A stretch of DNA of 34,461 bases, from positions 1 to 34,461 of the forward strand of contig NZ_BAOL01000100.1 in the NCBI RefSeq assembly GCF_000350145.1, written 5' to 3'. Positions 3,279-15,969 of this stretch are shown in pieces. The stretch comes from Ilumatobacter nonamiensis YM16-303. GTDB taxonomy: Bacteria > Actinomycetota > Acidimicrobiia > Acidimicrobiales > Ilumatobacteraceae. A model generated the notes under the pieces. That model was given only the letters and a program-made list of their open reading frames with translations, had not been told where the DNA came from and searched no databases. Made by a program: the position numbers and the translations under genes. Position 1 is the first letter of the stretch. Each line of letters begins with the position of its first letter.

Positions 3279-4355
3279 ATGGAGCTGCGATACGGGAGCG
3301 CGAACGAGCAGATGCGCCAGGCTCTCGCCCGGATCTCACCGGGGACGCCGCTGCGTGACGGGATCGATCGGGTCGTGCGCGCGAAGGCGGGAGCGTTGCT
3401 CGTGCTCGACGACGGTCCCGACGTGCTGTCGATCTGCTCCGGCGGCTTCCTGGTCGACGCGCCGTTCAGCCCGCAGCGCCTGTCCGAGCTGGCGAAGATG
3501 GACGGAGCGATCATCATCTCGGGCGACGGCGGGCGGATCGCCCGGGCCAATGTGCACCTCGTTCCCGATCCGACCGTGCCGACCAGCGAGACCGGAACAC
3601 GGCACCGCACGGCCGAGCGCGTCGCCCGATCGCTCGATGTTCCCGTCGTGTCCGCCAGCGAGGAGATGGGCGTCATCAACGTCTACGCGGGCGGCGGAAA
3701 GCGCCAGCTGCAGGAGATCGGCCGTCTCCTCGAACGCGCCAACCAGGCGCTGCAGACCCTCGAGCGCTACAAGGTCCGGCTCGACGACGCGATGGCCAAG
3801 CTCACCGCCGTCGAGGTCGAGGACGTGGCAACGCTTCGCGACGTGGCCGCCGTCGTTCAGCGTGGCGAGATGGTGCATCGCATCGCCGACGAGATCGAGA
3901 CGATGATCGTCGAGCTCGGTGTGGACGCACGATTGCTCCGCCTCCAGCTCGACGAGCTCTACGGCGAGATCGACGACGAACTCGAACTCGTCGTGCAGGA
4001 CTACGTCGCCGACGACCGGACCCCGAGCGAGACGCTCGAGATCATGTCGCGTCTCACCGACGAAGAGACCCACGACCTTCGCAAGGCGGCCGAAGCACTG
4101 CACCGTCTCGAGGAGGACGACGACCTCACGATCTCGGTCGCCCCGCGCGGCCTGCGACTCCTGCACCGCACGAAACGCCTGTCGTCCGACTCGGCACTCG
4201 CCATCGCCGGACACTTCAACGGGCTGTCGAAGCTGCAACGTGCGACACTCACCGACCTGTCCGAGGTCGCCGGAATCGACGACGCCACCGCAGCCGAAGT
4301 GCGCGAGACACTGGCACGGGTGACCGAGTCGGCGATTCTCGACCAGTACAACTGA
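3279..4355 (+). CDS. disA: DNA integrity scanning protein DisA, diadenylate cyclase
   Basis: A 358-residue protein of full DisA length. DisA joins two ATP molecules into cyclic di-AMP and scans DNA for branched intermediates. The N-terminal DAC domain carries the DGA motif (75-77) and GTRHR (106-110) that bind and position ATP. A central helical linker (about 140-290) is followed by the C-terminal helix-hairpin-helix DNA-binding domain (about 307-348, with LTDLSEVAGIDDATAAEVRE). It forms octamers in characterised relatives. It is followed after ten bases by a 2-oxoglutarate oxygenase and then a SulP transporter, all on the same strand, so these three are probably one transcript. Confidence 0.97.
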   Translation: MELRYGSANEQMRQALARISPGTPLRDGIDRVVRAKAGALLVLDDGPDVLSICSGGFLVDAPFSPQRLSELAKMDGAIIISGDGGRIARANVHLVPDPTVPTSETGTRHRTAERVARSLDVPVVSASEEMGVINVYAGGGKRQLQEIGRLLERANQALQTLERYKVRLDDAMAKLTAVEVEDVATLRDVAAVVQRGEMVHRIADEIETMIVELGVDARLLRLQLDELYGEIDDELELVVQDYVADDRTPSETLEIMSRLTDEETHDLRKAAEALHRLEEDDDLTISVAPRGLRLLHRTKRLSSDSALAIAGHFNGLSKLQRATLTDLSEVAGIDDATAAEVRETLARVTESAILDQYN

Positions 4356-4365
4356 CGAGCGATCC

Positions 4366-5430
4366 ATGGCCGCCGCGTCCGCTGCTGGTTTCGACGAGAT
4401 CCCGATCGTCAGCCTCGGTGCGATCGCGGGACCGCCTGACCCGCGCCAGGAGCTCGCCGACACCGTTCGCCGCATCTGCCACGAGATCGGCTTCATGGTC
4501 GTGACCGATCACGGAGTCGACGACGCCGTCGTGGCCGACGTGTTCGACCTCATGCGCCGGTTCTTCGCGTTGGACGAGTCCGAGCGCGCCCTCATCGACA
4601 AACGCCGCTCTCCGCACTTCCGCGGCTGGGAGGCGGTCGGCTCGGAGTTCACCAACAACCGGGTCGACGTGCGCGAACAGATCGACGTCTGGTCGGAATG
4701 GCCAACGGCGACGACAACGAACGGACCCGTCCATGATCGGCTGCACGGGCCGAACCAGTGGATGCCCACCGAGGTCCTCACCGGCCAGCGCGAGATCACC
4801 GAACGCTGGATGGACGAACTCGGCTCGCTCGCCGATCGAATCCTGAGTCTCCTGGCCGCCGGCCTCGGTCTCGACGACGACTTCTTCGTCGATCTGTTCG
4901 GCGATCGGCCGATGTCGCTCACCAAGATGATCAACTACCCGCCCACTCCGACGGGAGGAGCGGGGGTCAATGCGCACCACGACACCGGATTCCTGACGCT
5001 GCTCGCCCCGGGCACGGTGGCCGGACTGGAAGTGCTCAACCCGGCCGGCGAGTGGATCGCGGTCCCGGCAGTGCCCGGATCCTTCGTGGTCAACCTCGGC
5101 GAGATGCTGCAGTCGATGACCGGGAACTACTTCGTCGCGACCGCCCATCGAGTGATCACGACCGAGCCGCGGATGTCGGCGGCGTACTTCCACGGACCAT
5201 CGCTCGACACGCCTCTCGAACCGATCGATCTCGATCGACGATTCGTCGATGCGGTCGCCGCCAGCCCGCGGCATTTCTCGGCGGGATTCATGGCGAGCGC
5301 AGCCGAGACGGAATCCGGTGTGAGTGAGATGGCGAGTCGGCACCGCGCCGACACCTACGGTCAGCAGCTGTGGAACTACTTCGTCCGCAGTTACCCCGAC
5401 AACGTCGCCCGTCATCACCCCGACGCGTGA
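4366..5430 (+). CDS. 2-oxoglutarate/Fe(II)-dependent oxygenase, isopenicillin N synthase-like family
   Basis: A 354-residue protein with an N-terminal DIOX_N domain (about 10-130, IPIVSLGAI and GFMVVTDHGV) and a C-terminal 2OG-Fe(II) oxygenase domain. The iron triad is intact: H204 and D206 in HHDTG, and H261 in TAHRV. The RxS pair that binds the 2-oxoglutarate carboxylate is R269-S271 (RMS). The fold is that of IPNS, gibberellin oxidases and ethylene-forming enzymes, so it most likely hydroxylates a small molecule, but the substrate cannot be read from sequence. It starts ten bases after disA and ends 22 bases before the SulP gene, which suggests co-transcription. No strong Shine-Dalgarno is seen. 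Confidence 0.88.
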   Translation: MAAASAAGFDEIPIVSLGAIAGPPDPRQELADTVRRICHEIGFMVVTDHGVDDAVVADVFDLMRRFFALDESERALIDKRRSPHFRGWEAVGSEFTNNRVDVREQIDVWSEWPTATTTNGPVHDRLHGPNQWMPTEVLTGQREITERWMDELGSLADRILSLLAAGLGLDDDFFVDLFGDRPMSLTKMINYPPTPTGGAGVNAHHDTGFLTLLAPGTVAGLEVLNPAGEWIAVPAVPGSFVVNLGEMLQSMTGNYFVATAHRVITTEPRMSAAYFHGPSLDTPLEPIDLDRRFVDAVAASPRHFSAGFMASAAETESGVSEMASRHRADTYGQQLWNYFVRSYPDNVARHHPDA

Positions 5431-5452
5431 CTCTCGGTCGAGGAGGCATCGC

Positions 5453-7153
5453 GTGACGGACGCAACGAGATCGACGTCGTTGGTGTCGCTGCCCGAGCGA
5501 ACGCTGACCTCCGTCATCCCGATCCTCGGCTGGCTCCGGCGCTACCGGTGGAAGCGCGATCTTCCCGTCGACCTCATCGCGGGACTCGCGCTGGCGGCAC
5601 TCCTGATCCCGGAGTCGATGGGCTATGCCGGGGTCGCCGGTGTCCCCGCCGAGGTCGGCCTGTACGCCGCTCTGGGAGCCGTTGCGGCCTACGCGATCAC
5701 CGGTGGTTCCTCGATCCTGGTGGTCGGGCCGGCGTCCGCCGTCGCCGCCCTGTCGGCATCGATCGTCGCGGACTTCTCCGGGGATGTCGACCCCATTGCG
5801 CTGACCTCCGCGCTCGCGATCACGTCGGGCGTGCTGCTGATCGTCGCCGGGATCCTGCGACTCGGATGGATCGTCAACTTCATCTCCCGGCCCGTGCTCG
5901 AAGCGTTCATCGCCGGACTCTCGATCTCGATCATCATCGGACAGCTCGACGGGCTCCTCGGTGTCGAGGTCGACGGCGAATCGGCCGTGGCGCAGTTCAT
6001 CGACATCGTGTCGAACGTCGCCGACTGGCAAGGGTGGACGGTGCTGATCGGCGTGGCAGCCGTCATCGCGCTGCTCCTGCTCGAACGGTACGCCGCACGG
6101 GTGCCGGCAGCGATCGTCGTGGTCGTGGCGGGCATCGTCATCGTCGAGATCCTCGACCTGGCGTCGCGAGGCGTCGAGGTGGTCGGCGACATCCCGCAGG
6201 GCCTCCCCGACGTCGGCGTCCCGGAGCTGTCCATGGCCGAGTGGCTCGAGCTGCTCGCCGGAGGATTGTCGCTGATGCTCGTCGGTTTCTCCGAGGGTTT
6301 CGCGGCGGTGTCGTCGGTCTCCTCCGCAACCGGTGAGGAGGTCGATTCGGACCAGGAACTGATCGGGAGCGGCGCGGCGAACGTCGCGAGCGGTCTCGTG
6401 GGTGGGCTCGCGGTGAGTGGCAGCCTGTCGAAGTCGGAGGCCTCGATCGCGAATGGCGCACGGAGCCAGATGGCCAACGTCGTCGGCGGCATCACCGTGC
6501 TCGCGACGCTGTTGTTCCTCGGGCCGCTGTTCGAGATTCTCCCCGAACCGGTCCTCGCTGCGGTGGTGATCGTGGCCGTCCTCGGTGCCGCGAACCCGAC
6601 CCGCGTGCTCGATCTGTGGGACGTGAACCGTGCCGACTTCATCGCGGGCGTCATCACCTTCGTGCTCGTGCTGGTGTGGGAGGCGCTGCCCGCGATGATC
6701 GTCGGGGTCGTGATCTCCCTGGCGTTCGTGGTCCGTCGCGCCAGCTTCCCGGACGTACTCGAGTTGTACCGCACGAGCGATGGCAGCTTCGTGGCCCGAG
6801 GCGACGAGGAGCTCGACGCGGCACCGGTCGACGGGGTCGCCATCCTGCGGTTCGAGGCACCGTTGATCTACGCGAACGCGGGTCGCCTGGTCCGCGGCTC
6901 GAAGGCGCTCATCGCCGCTCGGCCCGACGCGACACGATTCATCCTCGACGCCGAGATGGTGTCGGACCTCGACGCCAGTGGCGCCCGGGCACTCGCTGCG
7001 ATCGACGACGCCCTCCGCGAACGCGGGATCGAGATGCGGATCGCGCGGTTCCACCGCCGTGCCCGCCAGCAGGTACATCGTTCCAAGCTCCGAGCCCGAT
7101 TCGAGGGGCGCATCTTCCCGAGTCTCGACGCGGCCGTTCACGGCGACGCGTGA
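5453..7153 (+). CDS. SulP family anion transporter with C-terminal STAS domain
   Basis: A 566-residue inner-membrane protein. The GTG at 5453 is preferred to longer in-frame starts because GAGGAGG sits just upstream and the longer form would overlap the oxygenase gene. The membrane domain (about 35-430) begins with the SulP signature LPVDLIAGLALAALLIPESM and YAGVAGVPAEVGLYAA; a cytoplasmic STAS domain covers about 460-555. SulP members move sulfate, bicarbonate or other anions, usually with protons or sodium. There are no sulfur-assimilation genes nearby, so bicarbonate or an organic anion is equally possible. It is the last gene of the disA unit and converges on the ECF sigma gene. Confidence 0.93.
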   Translation: MTDATRSTSLVSLPERTLTSVIPILGWLRRYRWKRDLPVDLIAGLALAALLIPESMGYAGVAGVPAEVGLYAALGAVAAYAITGGSSILVVGPASAVAALSASIVADFSGDVDPIALTSALAITSGVLLIVAGILRLGWIVNFISRPVLEAFIAGLSISIIIGQLDGLLGVEVDGESAVAQFIDIVSNVADWQGWTVLIGVAAVIALLLLERYAARVPAAIVVVVAGIVIVEILDLASRGVEVVGDIPQGLPDVGVPELSMAEWLELLAGGLSLMLVGFSEGFAAVSSVSSATGEEVDSDQELIGSGAANVASGLVGGLAVSGSLSKSEASIANGARSQMANVVGGITVLATLLFLGPLFEILPEPVLAAVVIVAVLGAANPTRVLDLWDVNRADFIAGVITFVLVLVWEALPAMIVGVVISLAFVVRRASFPDVLELYRTSDGSFVARGDEELDAAPVDGVAILRFEAPLIYANAGRLVRGSKALIAARPDATRFILDAEMVSDLDASGARALAAIDDALRERGIEMRIARFHRRARQQVHRSKLRARFEGRIFPSLDAAVHGDA

Positions 7154-7200: not shown

Positions 7201-8097
7201 TCAGGCTCGCCAGCGCTCGTGGAAGCGGGCCAGCTTGTCCGGGTTGACGATCGTGAGGAACTCCGCGACCCGCCCGTCGCGCCAACCGATCACGTTGAGC
7301 AGGAACGGCTCGCCGTCGCGGACGATGTACAAGCCGGTCTGGCCGTTGACGCGCAACCAGTGGAGCTCGTCGCTCTCCCGGAGGTCGCGATTGGTCAGGT
7401 TGATGAGCAGCCGTGCGACCCGATCGGCACCGACGACCGGCCGACGGGCCGCATGACGTTCCGCGCCGCCATCGGAGATGTGGACGACATCGTCGGTCAT
7501 CATCGCCATCAACTCGTCGACGTCGCCGTTCACCACCGCTCCGAGGAACGCCGCCGACCACTTGTCCACGTCGTCCGGTTCGGGATCGATGCGCGGTCGA
7601 CCCGATCGGACTCGATCGCGCGCCCGCTTTGCGGTCTGGCGCGTCGCGGGCACCGACTTGCCGACGACGGTCGCGACCTCGTCGAACGGATACCCGAACA
7701 CGTCGTGGAGCAGGAAGACCGCCCGCTCGACCGGTCCGAGGGTTTCGAGGACGCGCAGGAGGCCCAGCTCCAACCCCTCCCCACCGATCGCGGAAGCAGC
7801 CGGATCGATCGGCGAATCGGCTGTGGGATCAACCGTCAACGGTTCCGGGATCCACGGTCCCACATACGTCTCTCGCCGCCGACGAGCCGAGGTGAGTCGA
7901 TCGATCGACAACCGCGTCGTGACGGTCGTGAGCCACGCGGCCGGATTCTCGACGTCGTCGAGTGTCGTGCCTTGCCACCGCAGCCACGCGTCCTGGACGA
8001 CATCGTCGGCATCGTCGGGAGTTCCCAGCATCCGGTACGCCAGCCGCATCAGACGCGGGCGCTCGGCCTCGAAGAACTCGGTGGCCTGCGAGCTCAT
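7201..8097 (-). CDS. ECF41-type RNA polymerase sigma factor with fused SnoaL-like regulatory domain
   Basis: A 298-residue sigma factor. Region sigma-2 is at about 5-70, sigma-4 at about 110-165, and a SnoaL-like C-terminal extension at about 180-298. Three ECF41 hallmarks are present: WIPEP (82-86, family form WLPEP) in the linker, DGG (209-211) in the extension and NPDKL (285-289) near the end. In ECF41 members the extension replaces an anti-sigma factor and tunes activity. The ATG at 8097 is preferred to a longer frame because GGTGA lies six bases upstream and it begins four bases after the oxidoreductase stop codon, which implies translational coupling. The upstream gene carries a promoter of ECF41 type, so the operon is probably autoregulated. 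The inducing signal is unknown. Confidence 0.94.
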   Translation of the reverse strand: MSSQATEFFEAERPRLMRLAYRMLGTPDDADDVVQDAWLRWQGTTLDDVENPAAWLTTVTTRLSIDRLTSARRRRETYVGPWIPEPLTVDPTADSPIDPAASAIGGEGLELGLLRVLETLGPVERAVFLLHDVFGYPFDEVATVVGKSVPATRQTAKRARDRVRSGRPRIDPEPDDVDKWSAAFLGAVVNGDVDELMAMMTDDVVHISDGGAERHAARRPVVGADRVARLLINLTNRDLRESDELHWLRVNGQTGLYIVRDGEPFLLNVIGWRDGRVAEFLTIVNPDKLARFHERWRA

Positions 8098-8101
8098 TCG
8101 T

Positions 8102-9334
8102 TCACCGGACGCTCGGTTGCCGGTCGAGATGGGCGACCGCGTTGCGCGCCGCGTCCTCCGCGCTGGCGAGCACGGCGTCGAGAAGATGCCCTCGTCGTCC
8201 GACCCAGTCGCCGACGACGAACACGCCGGCGCGGTCGGGCACGACTCCATCGGGTCGACGCCGGAGGCCTCCCGCCGCGGCGGTGGAGATCGCGGTCACG
8301 GCGGTCATCCGGTGAAGGTACCGCTCGGTTTCGACCGACTCCGGCGCGACGCCGGCGTGGGTGAGGAACGCCCGGAGCCTCTCCCGGTCCGGGGCCGTGT
8401 CGGGTGCGAGGTACTCCGCCACCGACATCGACGAGCGGCCGGCGGGCGTCATCCCGGCGGGAAAGCCGTGATTCGACAGATACATGGGCGGATCGATCCC
8501 GAGTACGACGTCGTGGGTCGGCGGAGTCGTGAGGCCGATGTCGAGCACGGACACATCGGCCGACGGGCCGAGCTCGTCGAAGCGCTGCCCCGTGAGCGCG
8601 GTGACCGACGACGGAGCGCCGGTCGCGACGATCACGCAGCGGGCATCGGGGAGCTCGCGGACCGGCTCGTCGCGGACGACCGTGATTCCCTCGACCGCGG
8701 CGAGAGCGTCGACGAGCTGCTCCCAGCCGCGATCGAGATAGATCACGCCGTCTCCGAGTGCCAGTTGGACCTGCATCAGCGCCACGTCCGCGGACAGCAC
8801 GTCCGGAGCATTCACGTAGGTCCCCAGTCGGATCACGGTGTGGATGATCTCGCGCACCCGAGCGCGTGGCGACAGATCGTCGACCCACTCGCCGGTGGTG
8901 ACCGAGCCGAGCGTGGCGGGGTCGAGCCGATCGATGCGATTCAACACGCCGGCCAGAGCGACCTTGTCCCGCCAGCCGAGCACCGAACTGCGCAGCAAGC
9001 TCACGGGATCACCTGGTGCGAGCCCCACCTGTCCGTCGCGCACCATCCGGGCGCCCTTCGTGTTCGGCGCGGTGCCGGACGGGGCGATCCCGAACGCTCG
9101 CAGCACTCGGTGGCCTTCGCCCGCGAGGTAGAGCGCGTGCGGGCCCTGATTGAACCGGTAGCCGTCCTTCGAATCCGTCGTCGCCCGGCCGCCGAGTCGG
9201 CCGCGACCTTCGTGCACGGTGACGGAACGACCCGCACGGGCGACCAACGCCGCGGCGGCGAGTCCGCCGAGCCCACCTCCGATCACGTGGACATCGGCGT
9301 GGCTCGGGTCGACTGGTGGAGAATCGTGGCTCAT
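8102..9334 (-). CDS. FAD-dependent oxidoreductase (phytoene desaturase/amine oxidase-like)
   Basis: A 410-residue protein with an N-terminal FAD-binding Rossmann motif (DVHVIGGGLGGLAAAALVARAG, GGGLGG at 19-24) and the second conserved stretch RGRLGGRATT. It belongs to the broad NAD(P)-binding/CrtI-like amine oxidase superfamily. The C-terminus (GVFVVGDWVGRRGHLLDAVLASAEDAA) matches the FAD-pyrophosphate contact region of that superfamily. It is shorter than CrtI desaturases (about 490 residues) and a carotenoid role is not implied. ECF41 genes are typically paired with an oxidoreductase, epimerase or CMD protein, and this is evidently the partner here. The ATG at 9334 lies eight bases after an ECF41-like -10 and lacks a Shine-Dalgarno, so the mRNA may be leaderless. 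Confidence 0.88.
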   Translation of the reverse strand: MSHDSPPVDPSHADVHVIGGGLGGLAAAALVARAGRSVTVHEGRGRLGGRATTDSKDGYRFNQGPHALYLAGEGHRVLRAFGIAPSGTAPNTKGARMVRDGQVGLAPGDPVSLLRSSVLGWRDKVALAGVLNRIDRLDPATLGSVTTGEWVDDLSPRARVREIIHTVIRLGTYVNAPDVLSADVALMQVQLALGDGVIYLDRGWEQLVDALAAVEGITVVRDEPVRELPDARCVIVATGAPSSVTALTGQRFDELGPSADVSVLDIGLTTPPTHDVVLGIDPPMYLSNHGFPAGMTPAGRSSMSVAEYLAPDTAPDRERLRAFLTHAGVAPESVETERYLHRMTAVTAISTAAAGGLRRRPDGVVPDRAGVFVVGDWVGRRGHLLDAVLASAEDAARNAVAHLDRQPSVR

Positions 9335-9342
9335 GTCTGTTC

Positions 9343-9369
9343 GACGACGCAGCGGATCAGAATGTGACA
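9343..9369 (-). promoter_or_regulatory. ECF41-type promoter of the oxidoreductase-sigma operon
   Basis: Read on the minus strand: TGTCACA (9369-9363), 16 bases, then CGTC (9346-9343). This equals the -35/-10 pair and spacer described for ECF41 target promoters. The -10 ends eight bases before the ATG at 9334. Confidence 0.75.
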
Positions 9370-9417: not shown

Positions 9418-10056
9418 TCAGGCCAGGTCGGCGAGGCGGACGCCTTCCAGCGTGGCCAACATGGTCACGCCGGGTTGCGGCTCGACGTCGACCACGTGCG
9501 GCACGGCTACCGTTCGACATCCCGCCGCCACGGCGGATCCCACGCCGGTCGGTGAATCCTCGATCGCCACGCAGTCGGCCGGTTCTGCCCCGACGAGTGC
9601 CGCCGCAGCGAGGTACGGGTCGGGTGCCGGCTTGCCGTTGACCACCTCGTCACCGGTCACCGATCCGACGAACACGCCCGCGGGAGCGGCCGAGAGGACC
9701 GCATCGGCGAGGCGCCGCCACGACATGGTCACCAACACGCACGGCACGGCCGCTTCGCGCGCCTCGATCAGCAGGTCCCGGGCACCGGGTCGCCACAACA
9801 ACTCTTCGGCACACATCGCGATCACGCTGTCGAGCAGCCACTCGACGATCGCCGGCGGCTCGAGGCGAACCCCACCGCGATCGCGCAGCTGCACCGCGGC
9901 GTCGAGCAGGTCGAATCCGACGATCGAGTGTGCATCCTCTGCGCTCCACGTGTCGCCGAACTCCGCGACGAGCTTGTGCTCACTCGCGATCCAGTACGGC
10001 TCCGAATCGACGATCGTCCCGTCCATGTCGATCAACAGCGCCGCCGGCAGAGTCAT
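9418..10056 (-). CDS. HAD-superfamily hydrolase, beta-phosphoglucomutase/phosphatase-like
   Basis: A 212-residue HAD subfamily IA protein. Motif I is DMDGT with nucleophile D10 and acid/base D12; motif II is T110 in VLVTMS; motif III is K142 in NGKPAPDPY; motif IV is E166-D167 in IEDSPTG. A helical cap occupies about 17-90. NGKPAPDPYL and IEDSPTGV resemble beta-phosphoglucomutase and 2-deoxyglucose-6-phosphatase types, so a sugar phosphate or similar small phosphoester is the likely substrate, unproven. The ATG at 10056 is chosen over an in-frame TTG at 10077 because the latter lies inside a hairpin. It is on the same strand as the downstream ECF41 operon but 83 bases away, and that operon has its own promoter. 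Confidence 0.88.
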   Translation of the reverse strand: MTLPAALLIDMDGTIVDSEPYWIASEHKLVAEFGDTWSAEDAHSIVGFDLLDAAVQLRDRGGVRLEPPAIVEWLLDSVIAMCAEELLWRPGARDLLIEAREAAVPCVLVTMSWRRLADAVLSAAPAGVFVGSVTGDEVVNGKPAPDPYLAAAALVGAEPADCVAIEDSPTGVGSAVAAGCRTVAVPHVVDVEPQPGVTMLATLEGVRLADLA

Positions 10057-10101: not shown

Positions 10102-11439
10102 TCAGACTCCGCGAAACATGGTGATCTTGTCTTCACCGATGCGTTCACGCTTCTCCGGATCGGAGACACCGAGGCCCTCGGCCGGCGCGAGGCACAGCAC
10201 ACCGAGCTTGCCCTCGGCTTCGTTGTGGTGCACCGCGAGCGCGGCGTCGCCGACGTGGTCGAGGTCGTACACGTCGGTCAGGAGCGGTTGGATCCGGCCC
10301 TGGTCGAGCAGCTTGTTCGCGGCCCAGGATTCCGCGTAGTTCGCGAAGTGCGACGACAGCAGCTTCTTCAGCTTCATCCAGAAGTGCCGGTTGTCGAACT
10401 CGACCATGTAGCCGGACGTCGCGGCACACGTGACCACCGTGCCGCCGCGCTTCACGGCGAAGATCGAGGCGCCCATCGTCGAGCGACCCGGGTGCTCGAA
10501 CACGATGTCGACGTCCTCGCCACCGTTGACCGCCCGGATGTCCTTGCCGAACCGCCGCCACTCGCTCTCGTCCTGCGTGTACTCGTCGGACCAGAACTGG
10601 TAACCAGCCGCCTTGCGATCGATGACCGCCTCACAGCCCATCTTGTTCAGCAACTCGGCTCGTTCCGGTGAGGAGACCACGCCGATCGGTCGACCTCCAC
10701 CGTTCAACACGTACTGCACGGCGTATCCACCGATGCCGCCGGTCGCGCCCCAGATGAGGACGCTGTCGCCCTGCTTCATCCGCGCGCCGTTGTCGCTCAC
10801 GAGCATCCGGTAGGACGTGGCGCTGCACAGCCCGTTCACCGCTGCCTCCTCCCAGGTGAGGTGCGTCGGCTTGGGCATCAGCTGGTTCGCCTTCACGACC
10901 GACAGGTCGGCGAGCGCACCGAAGTTGGTCTCGAAACCCCAGATCTTCTGGTTCGCAGCGAGCATCGAGTCGTCGTGTGCGCTCGGGTCCTGGTCGTCGA
11001 CGTAGTTGCAGTGGACGGTGACCTCGTCACCCGGCTTCCAGTTGCGCACCGCGGCGCCCACCTTCAGCACGACACCGGATGCGTCCGAACCGACGATGTG
11101 TTCGTCGCGGGAGTGCCGTGCGCCGTACTCGCCGTCGCGGGCCATGCGATCGAGGAACCCGAAGGTCGGCAGTGGCTCGAAGATCGAGGTCCACACCGTG
11201 TTGAAGTTGATGCTCGACGCCATCACGGCGATGTACACCTCGTCGGGTGCGAGTTCCGGCGTGGCGACCTGGTCGACGTGGAGCGACGCACGCGGATCCT
11301 TGTCCCACGAGTCGACTCCCTCGAACATCGCGGCCTCGTCGCGCTTGACGAACGAGGCGCGGTAGCTCTCGGGAATCGGAAGGTTGGCGATGTCGTCGCT
11401 GCTCGCGCCGGCCTGGATCGCTTCGAGAATCTGCTCCAT
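10102..11439 (-). CDS. ccr: Crotonyl-CoA carboxylase/reductase
   Basis: A 445-residue medium-chain dehydrogenase/reductase of the Ccr clade. It reduces crotonyl-CoA with NADPH and carboxylates it to (2S)-ethylmalonyl-CoA, the key step of the ethylmalonyl-CoA pathway and a source of extender units. The NADPH-binding motif is WGATGGIGGYA (230-240). The four residues that hold CO2 in the Kitasatospora enzyme (N81, F170, E171, H365) have counterparts N80 (SSINFN), F169-E170 (WGFETNFG) and H364 (LLSSHFANY), so true carboxylation is expected rather than simple reduction. The gene is divergent from a thiolase that supplies acetoacetyl-CoA for the same route. Its TAACGT -10 lies seven bases before the ATG, implying a leaderless mRNA, and a palindromic operator overlaps it. 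Confidence 0.95.
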   Translation of the reverse strand: MEQILEAIQAGASSDDIANLPIPESYRASFVKRDEAAMFEGVDSWDKDPRASLHVDQVATPELAPDEVYIAVMASSINFNTVWTSIFEPLPTFGFLDRMARDGEYGARHSRDEHIVGSDASGVVLKVGAAVRNWKPGDEVTVHCNYVDDQDPSAHDDSMLAANQKIWGFETNFGALADLSVVKANQLMPKPTHLTWEEAAVNGLCSATSYRMLVSDNGARMKQGDSVLIWGATGGIGGYAVQYVLNGGGRPIGVVSSPERAELLNKMGCEAVIDRKAAGYQFWSDEYTQDESEWRRFGKDIRAVNGGEDVDIVFEHPGRSTMGASIFAVKRGGTVVTCAATSGYMVEFDNRHFWMKLKKLLSSHFANYAESWAANKLLDQGRIQPLLTDVYDLDHVGDAALAVHHNEAEGKLGVLCLAPAEGLGVSDPEKRERIGEDKITMFRGV

Positions 11440-11464: not shown

Positions 11465-11518
11465 CGAGGCGACCAAAGTCAGAAACGGTCGCCGGGTACC
11501 GTGCCTCGGTGGCGGCTT

Positions 11519-11534
11519 GTTACCGCTCGGTAGG
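11519..11534. promoter_or_regulatory. Operator 2, same palindrome on the thiolase promoter
   Basis: TTACCG-CT-CGGTAG matches operator 1 in inverted orientation, with five perfectly paired arm positions either side of the centre. Its centre is 70 bases from that of operator 1. It covers the -35 and spacer region of the thiolase promoter. Confidence 0.6.
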
Positions 11535-11541
11535 CGAGGAC

Positions 11542-11547
11542 TACGCT
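11542..11547 (+). promoter_or_regulatory. -10 hexamer of the thiolase gene
   Basis: TACGCT ends six bases before the ATG at 11554, as expected for a leaderless transcript. This also argues against the longer GTG start at 11509, which would put operator 2 inside the gene. Confidence 0.55.
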
Positions 11548-11553
11548 CGGAAC

Positions 11554-12744
11554 ATGGCTTCCAACGGTTCCTACATCATCGCCGGCGCTCGCACGCCGAT
11601 CGGCAAGATGAGCGGTGCACTCGCCTCGTTCTCCGCCGCCGACCTGGGTGGCTTCGCCATCACCGAAGCACTCAGCCGAGCAGGCGTCGCTCCCGACGAG
11701 GTCGACCACGTGATCATGGGACAGGTCCTGATGGCCGGCCAGGGCCAGGTCCCCAGCCGTCAGGCCGCGTTCAAGGCGGGCATCCCCATGAGCGTTCCGG
11801 CGGTCAACGTCAACAAGGTGTGCCTGTCGGGCCTGAACGCGATCTACCTCGCGCACCAGATGGTCGCGATGGGCGACGCGGACATCGTCGTCGCCGGCGG
11901 CATGGAGTCGATGACCAACGCCCCGTACCTCGCCGACGGCGCCCGCGGCGGGTTCCGCTACGGCAACACCGAGCTGCGTGACGCGATCATCGCCGACGGT
12001 CTGTGGTGCTCGTTCGACTCCTGCCTGATGGGGCTCGGCACCGAGCGCTACACCGGCGACACCGCGATCACGCGCGAGCAGCAGGACCAGCTCGCCGCCG
12101 CCTCCAACCAGCGCGCTGCTGCTGCCATCGAGGCCGGCACCCTGGCCGAGGAGATCGTCGCCGTGACCGTCCCGCAGCGCAAGGGCGACCCGATCGTGGT
12201 CGAACACGACGAGGGCGTCCGTGGAAACACGACGATCGAGACCCTCGCCGGAATGCGTCCGGCGTTCGACAAGGACGGCACGATCACCGCGGCCAACGCG
12301 TCGCAGCTGTCCGATGGTGCGTCGGCGGTCATCGTGATGTCGAAGGAAGCGGCCGAGAAGCGTGGAGTCACCCCGCTCGGCGAGTTCGTGTCGTACGGCA
12401 TGGTCGCCGGCCCCGACAGCGCCTCGCTGCTCACGCAGCCGAGCCGGGCGATCCTGCAGGCCGCCGACAAGGCGGGCGTGGCGGTGGCCGATCTCGACCT
12501 GTTCGAGATCAACGAAGCGTTCGCCGCTGTGGGTCGGGCGTCGATCGACGAGTTGGGCATCTCCGACGACATCGTGAACGTCAACGGTGGTGCGATCGCG
12601 CTCGGTCACCCGATCGGCATGAGCGGCAACCGTTTGGCGCTCACCCTGCTCCACGAGTTGAAGCGCCGCGGTGGCGGCATCGGTGCGGCCGGCCTCTGCG
12701 GTGGTGGCGGGCAGGGCGACGCGATCGTCCTCAAGACGATCTGA
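11554..12744 (+). CDS. Acetyl-CoA C-acetyltransferase (thiolase)
   Basis: A 396-residue thiolase of normal length. The acylated cysteine is C90 in VNKVCLSGLNA, the catalytic His is H352 in GGAIALGHPIG, and the proton-transfer cysteine is C382 in GLCGGGGQGDA. GTERYTGDTAITREQQDQ and EINEAFAA are typical of biosynthetic/degradative acetyl-CoA acetyltransferases (AtoB/PhaA/FadA). It condenses two acetyl-CoA to acetoacetyl-CoA or runs in reverse. Being divergent from ccr with matching operators, it most likely supplies the first step of the ethylmalonyl-CoA route. Other genes of that route (reductase, crotonase, mutase) are not in the window. I cannot tell thiolase I from thiolase II substrate range by eye. 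Confidence 0.95.
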   Translation: MASNGSYIIAGARTPIGKMSGALASFSAADLGGFAITEALSRAGVAPDEVDHVIMGQVLMAGQGQVPSRQAAFKAGIPMSVPAVNVNKVCLSGLNAIYLAHQMVAMGDADIVVAGGMESMTNAPYLADGARGGFRYGNTELRDAIIADGLWCSFDSCLMGLGTERYTGDTAITREQQDQLAAASNQRAAAAIEAGTLAEEIVAVTVPQRKGDPIVVEHDEGVRGNTTIETLAGMRPAFDKDGTITAANASQLSDGASAVIVMSKEAAEKRGVTPLGEFVSYGMVAGPDSASLLTQPSRAILQAADKAGVAVADLDLFEINEAFAAVGRASIDELGISDDIVNVNGGAIALGHPIGMSGNRLALTLLHELKRRGGGIGAAGLCGGGGQGDAIVLKTI

Positions 12745-13752: not shown

Positions 13753-15900
13753 TCAGTACGGATCGTCGACGAGTTCGGAGCCCGGGAAGGCCTCGGCGAG
13801 GCGATCGACCGGTGATTTCACGGACTCGGGAGGTGCGTCGATCAGATCGTCGAGGTCGACATCATCGTCGTCTGGCAGCGTGTTGCCGACGCGCTGCAGA
13901 CCTTCGTCCGGGTCGGGCGGGGGCCCGTCCGTTCGCGCCTGGTCGGCGATCGCACGACCGTTCCGGACCGCAGCGCCGTCACCGGCTTCGGCGCCGGCGG
14001 GCTGTACGACGTGAAGATGCTGCGATGGATTGGTGTCCTCGCTCGGCACCGGGTCGTGCTCCGCGCTCGGGCTCCGATCCTCGGCCAGCGCACCCGTCGT
14101 GATCGGCTTCGCCGCGCCGGATCCCGATGGGCTCGCGGTCGACGGGCCGGAGGTTTCGACCGCTCGCGGAACGTCGGCGTCCTCGACTCCCGACGCGCTG
14201 CCACCCGGGCCGGAGCCCGCTCGCGATCCACCTCCTCCGCCGTCACCGTCGACGACCAGGTCGACCGAGATCGGGACACCGGCGTGAGCGGCCAACGCCT
14301 GCTCCACGACGTCGCGGTGCTGCTCGCACTTCGTGCGATGGGTCTCGTTGGGCAGACCCAGCGTGACGGTGCCCGCGTCGACGGACACGAACGTCGCCGG
14401 GGAGAACACCGCGCGTGCCATGCCCCGCAGCTGAGGACGAACCGTCTCCCAGTCGGCATCGCTGATCGACTTTCCGGCGCCGGCCGGGGCGGGCGTTTCC
14501 GCCGTCGATCGATCGGTCGGGGACCCGGCCGGATCACGCGACGCTGGTCCCGATTCGGCCACGGAGGATGTGGGTTGCGGGTCGTCGGACGCAGCCGGCG
14601 GAGCCGACGGGGGTTGTGCTGCGCCGGCATGTGCTGCGGCACCGTCGGTCGCGGCGGGCGCCGATGCACCGGCCCGGGACCCCAGCTTCCTGCGTCCCGT
14701 CGACGGATCGACTTCTCGCGGGGGAGCGGTCGCGGGCGGCATGGCAGCAGCAGATTCCGTCCCGGACGATGTGGCGGCCGCCGGCGCCGCGGGCACTCCG
14801 TCGGCCACCTTGCGCTCGAGCCGTTGGAGCCGGGTTGCGAGGGCAGCGACGTCGTCGCTCACCTCCTCGGCGGTCAAGCGGACCGTCGCGACGTCGAGCA
14901 GGACACGGGGGTCCGGCGCCGTACGCATCTCGACCAGCGCTTCGCCGAGTTGTTCGATCCCGCGCACGAGAAGAACGGCACCGGCCCGCTGTGCCACGTC
15001 GGTGACGGCGTCGAGGCGATGCGACGGCAGCTGAACCAGTTCGGGCGCCATCAATGCGAGGAACCCGTTGCGGAGGTAGCCGATGAGCTCCTCGGTGATC
15101 GTCCGCGGGTCGCGCCCTTGGCTGACCGACTGGGCGACCATCTTCAGACCCCGCCCCGGATCGTGCTCGATCATCGCCTCGACGAACTCGTCGAGCGCGA
15201 TGATCTCGGTCGCCGCACCGCCCGAGTTCGACACGAGTTCGAGCGCCGACAACGTGTCGCGCGGTGAGCCGGCCCCTTGCGCGATCACCTGCTCGATCGC
15301 ATCGTCGGACACGGTGAGACCGGCGTCGGACGCGACCCAGCGCACGTGCTCGTCGAGGGTGTCGGCACCCAACAGGTGGAACTGCAGGTGCTGGGTCCGG
15401 CTGCGAATCGTGTCGGACATCTTCTGCGGATCGGTCGTCGCCAGGACGAACACGACGTGCGGCGGCGGCTCCTCCAGGGTCTTGAGCAACGCTGCCTCGG
15501 CCCCCTTCGACAGCATGTGCACCTCGTCGAGGATGTACACCTTGTGGCGACCGGGCGTCCCGAGCGACGCCTTGTCGATCAGGTCACGCATCGCTTCCAC
15601 GCCGTTGTTGCTCGCGGCGTCGAGTTCGTGCACGTCGTAGCTGGTTCCCTGCTCGACCGACAGGCACGAAGCGCACTCACAGCAGGGCTCGCCGTCCTGC
15701 GGTTTCTCGCAGTTGAGCACCTTGGCCATGATCCGTGCGGTCGTGGTCTTGCCGGTGCCGCGCGGGCCCGAGAACAGGTACGCCTGACCTTCACGGCCCT
15801 CGGCAACCGACGTCCGCAGCGCACGCACGATGTGGTCCTGGCCCTTGAGTTCGGAGAAGCGGCGAGGTCGATACCGGCGATACAGCGACTGGGTTGCCAT
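13753..15900 (-). CDS. dnaX: DNA polymerase III subunit gamma/tau
   Basis: A 715-residue clamp-loader subunit. The AAA+ module has the usual start [17 protein letters not shown], Walker A GPRGTGKT (45-52), a zinc-binding module with C64, C73, C76 and C79, Walker [10 protein letters not shown] (121-129) and sensor 1 region VLATTDP. The gamma collar domain follows to about 360. Residues from about 365 to 480 and from about 555 onward are Ala/Pro/Ser/Gly/Asp-rich and probably disordered, separated by a small folded stretch near 480-555 ([19 protein letters not shown]). No A-rich slippery heptamer for a gamma frameshift is visible. The ATG at 15900 is preferred to an upstream in-frame ATG at 15921 since the protein family begins here and TAGTGT lies eight bases before it. 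Confidence 0.96.
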
Positions 15901-15908
15901 CGATGGCC

Positions 15909-15914
15909 ACACTA
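15909..15914 (-). promoter_or_regulatory. -10 hexamer of dnaX
   Basis: TAGTGT on the minus strand, eight bases before the dnaX ATG. No Shine-Dalgarno is present and no convincing -35 was found. Confidence 0.4.
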
Positions 15915-15969
15915 CCGACACGACCCGTCGGGCCCGGTGGGCTGCACCACGATCGGAGCCGCGGCGCCC

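Follow-up and report, generated by a model that had tools for sequence, protein, structure and literature searches.

A promoter placed for predicted leaderless expression at an ECF41 sigma factor operon of Ilumatobacter nonamiensis

How is an operon expressed when its promoter leaves no room for a leader ahead of the first start codon? The question is raised by a 34,461-nucleotide stretch of Ilumatobacter nonamiensis YM16-303 (assembly GCF_000350145.1, contig NZ_BAOL01000100.1, positions 1 to 34,461), which is referred to in full as the window. On its minus strand, at 9369-9343, TGTCACATTCTGATCCGCTGCGTCGTC consists of TGTCACA, exactly 16 bases and CGTC, as a preliminary description of the locus had reported, and precedes an oxidoreductase (COE) gene that is followed by the gene of an ECF41 sigma factor. 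The description had taken this for the published ECF41 promoter; the match to the consensus is exact, and the site is the usual one for COE>ECF operons (PMC3426412). We consider it likely that this is an ECF41 operon of usual content that is self-regulated through a leaderless mRNA starting at the flavoprotein ATG, both autoregulation and leaderless expression being predictions.

The sigma factor ORF (298 amino acids) contains the WIPEP, DGG and NPDKL motifs already recognized in it as family hallmarks, the last two being what we take to be the names of ECF41 extension motifs. Its membership in ECF41 was supported by several comparisons. It passed the NCBIfam SigJ model NF007214 (307.5 bits, cut-off 271) and matched the SigJ structure 5xe7 with an E value of 1e-52 across residues 2-290. 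Its score for TIGR02957 fell below the cut-off (295.2 versus 323.25). The sigma2 and sigma4 regions passed PF04542 and PF08281 and are followed by an extension of about 100 amino acids, where the SnoaL_3 and SnoaL_2 matches were under the Pfam gathering scores (20.2 versus 22 and 19.5 versus 27). In an alignment of 18 sequences, Y78, G80, P84 and P86 were invariant for the linker motif, as were D209, G211 and K288 for the extension motifs, with G210 and P286 nearly invariant. In the linker, WIPEP stands in place of the consensus WLPEP, and DGG and NPDKL are not printed in the searched text of that paper (PMC3426412). One ECF41 gene was found in the genome (assembly 99.56% complete, 399 contigs), the other match reaching only 31% identity (E 1.2e-5).

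The first gene of the operon encodes a protein of 410 amino acids that passed PF01593 (Amino_oxidase). The earlier label of a CrtI-like flavoprotein holds for the broad superfamily, which includes carotene desaturase, and is too narrow as to CrtI, since cut-offs were missed and the fold matches were mostly amine oxidases. Among the NCBIfam matches listed (25 of 47) none reached its cut-off, CrtI-type models included; TIGR02734, the criterion for CrtI/phytoene desaturase, gave 47.1 bits against a cut-off of 238.1, and CrtI, HpnE and PPO were all rejected as the exact family for missing these thresholds. The predicted fold (mean pLDDT 80, from an alignment of only 7 rows) was nearest, among the 50 matches listed, to an uncharacterised archaeal oxidoreductase, amine oxidases, protoporphyrinogen oxidase and a carotene desaturase, with TM (query) values of 0.48-0.66 and 13-20% identity. 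As modelled, the flavoprotein belongs to the amine oxidase/protoporphyrinogen oxidase/carotene desaturase superfamily. PADLOC returned nothing for the sigma factor and one weak, desaturase-named match for the flavoprotein. The two genes are separated by a very short gap (Table 1) and are probably translationally coupled, and read-through from the HAD hydrolase gene upstream could supply basal expression of the operon. The neighbourhood is that of an ECF41 gene: a COE gene (PF01593) adjoins, and no anti-sigma family was detected by Pfam at E 1e-10 in the seven neighbouring ORFs scanned.

Table 1. Coordinates of the operon, its promoter and the surrounding genes in the window.
Feature	Position	Strand	Basis
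ECF41/SigJ-type sigma factor, C-terminal SnoaL-like extension	8097-7201	-	ORF, Pfam, NCBIfam, PDB match, alignment
Gap ACGA between stop TGA (8104-8102) and sigma factor ATG (8097-8095), 4 nt	8101-8098	-	Read from sequence
FAD-dependent flavoprotein matching PF01593 (Amino_oxidase), heads the operon and lacks an SD	9334-8102	-	ORF, Pfam, predicted fold
Predicted transcription start, A of ATG	9334 (±1)	-	Inferred from S. meliloti 9-nt spacing and geometry of 123 motifs
ECF41-type promoter TGTCACA-N16-CGTC	-35 9369-9363, -10 9346-9343	-	Window match, consensus of PMC3426412
HAD hydrolase, upstream, same strand	10077-9418	-	ORF list, Pfam
DisA-type protein	3279-4355	+	Pfam
2OG-Fe(II) oxygenase	4366-5430	+	Pfam
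Sulfate permease with STAS	5324-7153	+	Pfam
Zinc-type dehydrogenase	10102-11439	-	Pfam
Thiolase	11509-12744	+	Pfam
DNA polymerase III clamp-loader type	13753-15921	-	Pfam

CGTC and the flavoprotein ATG are separated by eight bases, GAACAGAC, and no SD-like 4-mer (AGGA, GGAG, GAGG, AAGG) occurs in the 14 bases before it, so that the preliminary description was right on both the distance and the missing Shine-Dalgarno sequence. The 16S anti-SD tail is intact in this genome. A wrongly chosen start codon was rejected: the single alternative ahead of the FAD motif, a GTG, falls within the first beta strand and has no SD, and the only in-frame ATG, GTG or TTG upstream, back to 9520, is the ATG at 9520, inside the HAD gene. 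In S. meliloti the ECF41 motif lies 9 nt upstream of a mapped start (PMC3616915), and a later table prints nine bases past CGTC (PMC6180224). Because of this spacing and the eight bases in the window, transcription would start at 9334 ±1. The description had put the start near 9336; the published spacing predicts 9334 ±1 instead.

The distance between promoter and start codon was surveyed at 226 ECF41 loci with one ECF41 gene per locus, namely the window, 40 loci of the class, the best 80 of 319 relatives (genome contigs) and 105 loci of the phylum. The class loci came from the 31 of 247 genomes that matched at E 1e-30 or better, with up to nine candidates scored per genome, and comprise 40 of the 41 other places (G212:C549 was left out). 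For the phylum, where 81 of 296 genomes matched at E 1e-60, the window and four class repeats (L185, L187, L201, L206) were dropped from the first 30 loci and 80 more among the matches listed were added. The pattern was TGTCAC-N16/17/18-CGTC. At each site, start codons that open an ORF of at least 90 codons were recorded up to 60 nt downstream, and the 18,515 other CGTC within the same loci served as control. This strict pattern occurred as 123 distinct motifs spread over 97 loci, and 129 of the 226 loci had none.

The start codons fell into two spacing groups. An ATG stood 8-9 nt past CGTC at 19 of the 123 motifs, with 1.1 expected (about 17-fold), and 8-11 nt past it at 25, with 1.7 expected; a low stretch followed, and then a broad rise at 31-44 nt. 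When similar sites were collapsed (117 of 123 motifs kept), 18 starts versus 1.04 expected remained at 8-9 nt, 13 versus 7.25 at 12-30 nt and 41 versus 5.14 at 31-44 nt, and the 0-7 nt interval likewise exceeded expectation (10 versus 3.13); Poisson values for these counts assume independence. ECF41 promoters with an ATG 8-9 nt past CGTC thus form a class that recurs and is not random. Together with the S. meliloti spacing, this lends indirect support to the leaderless mRNA proposed earlier for the window, which is kept as a prediction. Leaderless actinobacterial genes can start with GTG; a GTG peak sought at 8-9 nt was absent (1 versus 2.1 expected, 123 motifs). When no start was chosen by rule, SD-like 4-mers preceded 2 of the 25 ATGs at 8-11 nt, in line with the chance level (9.6% of random 10-mers), and, at 31-44 nt, 33 of the 42.

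Other features were seen around the motif. Outside the published boxes, the 110 ECF41 promoters with a 16-nt spacer favored T right before CGTC (0.65), G at +6 and +7 past CGTC (0.50 and 0.56) and C at motif position 18 (0.69). Upstream of the ECF41 genes of two Nocardia loci (L168, L169), a GTG 6 nt past CGTC begins a frame that stops after four codons and may be a leaderless mini-ORF, and the spacer of L169 differs from that of the window at 1 of 16 bases. At L090, where a flavoprotein gene lies beside the ECF41 gene, the ORF from an ATG 9 nt past CGTC ends at 84 codons, a frame break that is either real or a sequencing error; being below the limit of 90 codons, it was uncounted.

Three other readings of the window were weighed. 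In the one that survives best, which we still regard as unlikely, the promoter is correctly identified and the working mRNA is read-through from the HAD gene or comes from another promoter, so that the flavoprotein would be mostly leadered. The HAD gene does share the operon's strand, with its end 83 nt ahead of the flavoprotein ATG, but a longer mRNA would still be without a ribosome-binding site, there being no SD before that ATG, and the 8-9 nt peak across several lineages argues that a promoter-proximal start is used. Marginally less probable than read-through is a start 1-4 nt ahead of the ATG, in which case the mRNA would have a very short leader instead of none. Such a start fits 13 of the 23 genes classed below as leaderless-type, where CGTC and ATG are 9, 10 or 11 nt apart and transcription may begin 1-3 nt before the ATG; in the window, however, a spacing of 8 combined with the 9 nt of S. 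meliloti points to the A itself. The weakest alternative, a chance match with another promoter driving the operon, gains something from the 56 sites of the relaxed motif TGTCAC-N16-18-CGTC in the genome (6 for the reversed control) but is very improbable, because 4.28 Mb hold just two copies of the exact consensus, one of them before the only ECF41 operon found, and because relatives bear the motif at the same place.

The two exact copies come from the genome-wide search for TGTCACA-N16-CGTC that the preliminary description had proposed (4,282,232 bases; a control pattern gave 0). In the window itself there is one match, and a looser gap of 14-18 gives 0.24 matches expected by chance, with at least one in 18 of 100 shuffles; a chance motif was rejected on the window shuffles and the two exact copies. 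The relaxed sites were rejected as a regulon, 56 against 6 being too unspecific. The second exact motif, at C346:36315-36341, is not claimed as a second target; it stands about 125 nt ahead of the nearest ORF that is plausible, one that looks SDR-like by eye.

Turning from the window to the family, the motifs were classed by a rule that favors an SD-preceded start beyond 18 nt, and the shares of SD inside the classes are therefore not evidence. By this rule 23 of the 123 motifs were leaderless-type (15 sigma, 8 partner genes) and 65 leadered with SD (14 sigma, 51 partner), the remainder being 7 leadered without SD, 3 ambiguous sigma genes and 25 motifs that lacked a usable ORF. The leaderless type thus accounted for 15 of 34 sigma genes. 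Among the 64 partner genes, whose cluster names rest on Pfam matches in 58 (CMD 14, NAD_binding_10 17, Amino_oxidase 16), it was found in 7 of 17 flavoproteins, 0 of 17 epimerase/NAD-binding genes, 0 of 17 CMD genes and 1 of 13 others, this last being a 143-amino-acid ORF that is perhaps spurious (L149). For 7/17 flavoproteins versus 0/34 epimerase/NAD-binding and CMD genes, the Fisher test gave p = 1.7e-4 with kinship ignored, L132 and L165 being near copies. Leaderless-type sigma genes occur in proteobacteria (Stenotrophomonas L117; Pseudoxanthomonas L136 and L158) and in actinobacteria (L109, L132, L134, L165 and others). In the three proteobacterial loci another ECF41 motif follows, 845-871 nt past the leaderless-type sigma start and ahead of a CMD-cluster gene that starts 42-44 nt past CGTC.

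Misassigned start codons were rejected for 21 of the 23 leaderless-type genes, which have no SD-preceded alternative ahead of the first conserved segment; 11 of the 23 have no alternative start codon at all ahead of the conserved domain. For L136 and L149 the start of the domain was unrecognised and the first 25 residues were used. The exceptions are the sigma genes of L132 and L165, with an SD-preceded GTG two codons downstream. An SD-like 4-mer precedes the leaderless-type ATG in 2 of the 23 (sigma genes of L085 and L165). In the flavoproteins of L132, L134 and L165, the FAD motif comes 6-7 residues past the ATG.

On a tree of the 17 flavoproteins the layout needs 4 changes, at least 2 of them forced by well-supported branches, and it clustered weakly (42-48 of 500 shuffles gave as few as 4 changes). 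The well-supported branch that holds the window contains 9 flavoproteins, 4 leaderless-type and 5 leadered, one of the loci scored as leadered (L064) also having a GTG at 6 nt. On the sigma tree, a quick tree made with no bootstrap (15 leaderless-type, 16 leadered), 5 changes are needed, 3 of them forced, and the layout clustered (0 of 500 shuffles had as few). The changes on the trees and the mixed branch of the window indicate that the layout has shifted more than once and varies among relatives of the window. We tentatively propose, with a little less than even confidence, that ECF41 promoters come in two discrete layouts, and that the leaderless one arose repeatedly, serves the sigma factor's own gene and the flavoprotein rather than epimerase or CMD partners, and lets both be translated leaderlessly under the ECF41 signal, impairment of canonical initiation being one example.

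For the operon in the window we infer the following course, from signal and sigma dependence to start site, leaderless translation and coupling. As proposed for the family, the C-terminal SnoaL-like domain would restrain the sigma factor until a signal alters its shape (signal control by this domain is reviewed in PMC8999054). The active sigma factor would guide RNA polymerase to TGTCACA-N16-CGTC, and the RNA would begin about nine bases past CGTC on the A of the flavoprotein ATG, making the mRNA leaderless. The sigma gene, 4 nt past the flavoprotein stop, would be translated via coupling, closing a positive loop. Counting against this reading are the mixed branch of the window, the loci that have no motif and the motifs that lack a usable ORF, the two leaderless-type ATGs preceded by an SD-like 4-mer, the excess at 0-7 nt, the missing GTG peak and the SnoaL scores under the gathering thresholds. 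If part of ECF41 uses leaderless transcripts, the level of an autoregulated sigma factor would depend on the capacity of the ribosome to initiate on leaderless mRNA, which would tie transcription to the state of translation in a testable way, and target searches that demand a leader would miss such targets.

ECF41 sigma factors have been described in 10 phyla, their signal being given as not known; the promoter motif was derived from 285 sequences and, in 97 of 107 COE>ECF operons, lies ahead of the COE gene, and Amino_oxidase is counted among the COE oxidoreductase classes (Wecke 2012, PMC3426412). With Ecf41Bli-ydfG of Bacillus licheniformis and Ecf41Rsp-RSP_0606 of Rhodobacter sphaeroides the window shares the sigma2-sigma4 regions with extension, the linker motif, a COE partner, TGTCACA-N16-CGTC and the lack of an adjacent anti-sigma gene; it differs in its Amino_oxidase-type partner and in having no room for a leader, where 5'-RACE in those two organisms gave leaders of 22/23 nt with a ribosome-binding site (PMC3426412). 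Table 5 of that paper lists a "5'UTR" of 31 and 32 nt for the same genes, which on our reading of the discrepancy would, if counted from the -10, place the start about 9 nt past it. The SMb20029-rpoE9 operon of S. meliloti has the same COE>ECF order and promoter, with the start mapped 9 nt past the motif, and a carboxymuconolactone decarboxylase as partner, unlike the flavoprotein of the window (PMC3616915, PMC6180224). At eight surveyed loci, alphaproteobacteria by name, the start chosen by the rule lies 19-39 nt past CGTC.

SigJ of Mycobacterium tuberculosis (PDB 5xe7) matches the window's sigma factor over its full length and has the SnoaL-like C-terminal domain in common with it. A paper on leaderless actinobacterial genes counts S. 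coelicolor sigJ among them and refers to a study that, by its title, places this gene under sigmaH (PMC3160421). As predicted for the window, in such genes the 5' end coincides with the start codon or adjoins it, and there is no SD; unlike the window, the sequence given upstream of S. coelicolor sigJ has no CGTC (PMC3160421). No description of leaderless ECF41 transcripts was found in the searched text of the open-licence literature (ECF41, SigJ or Acidimicrobiia with leaderless). Compared with these systems, the sigma family, partner class and promoter of the window are those of an ordinary, known ECF41 operon, and the leaderless geometry is the new part.
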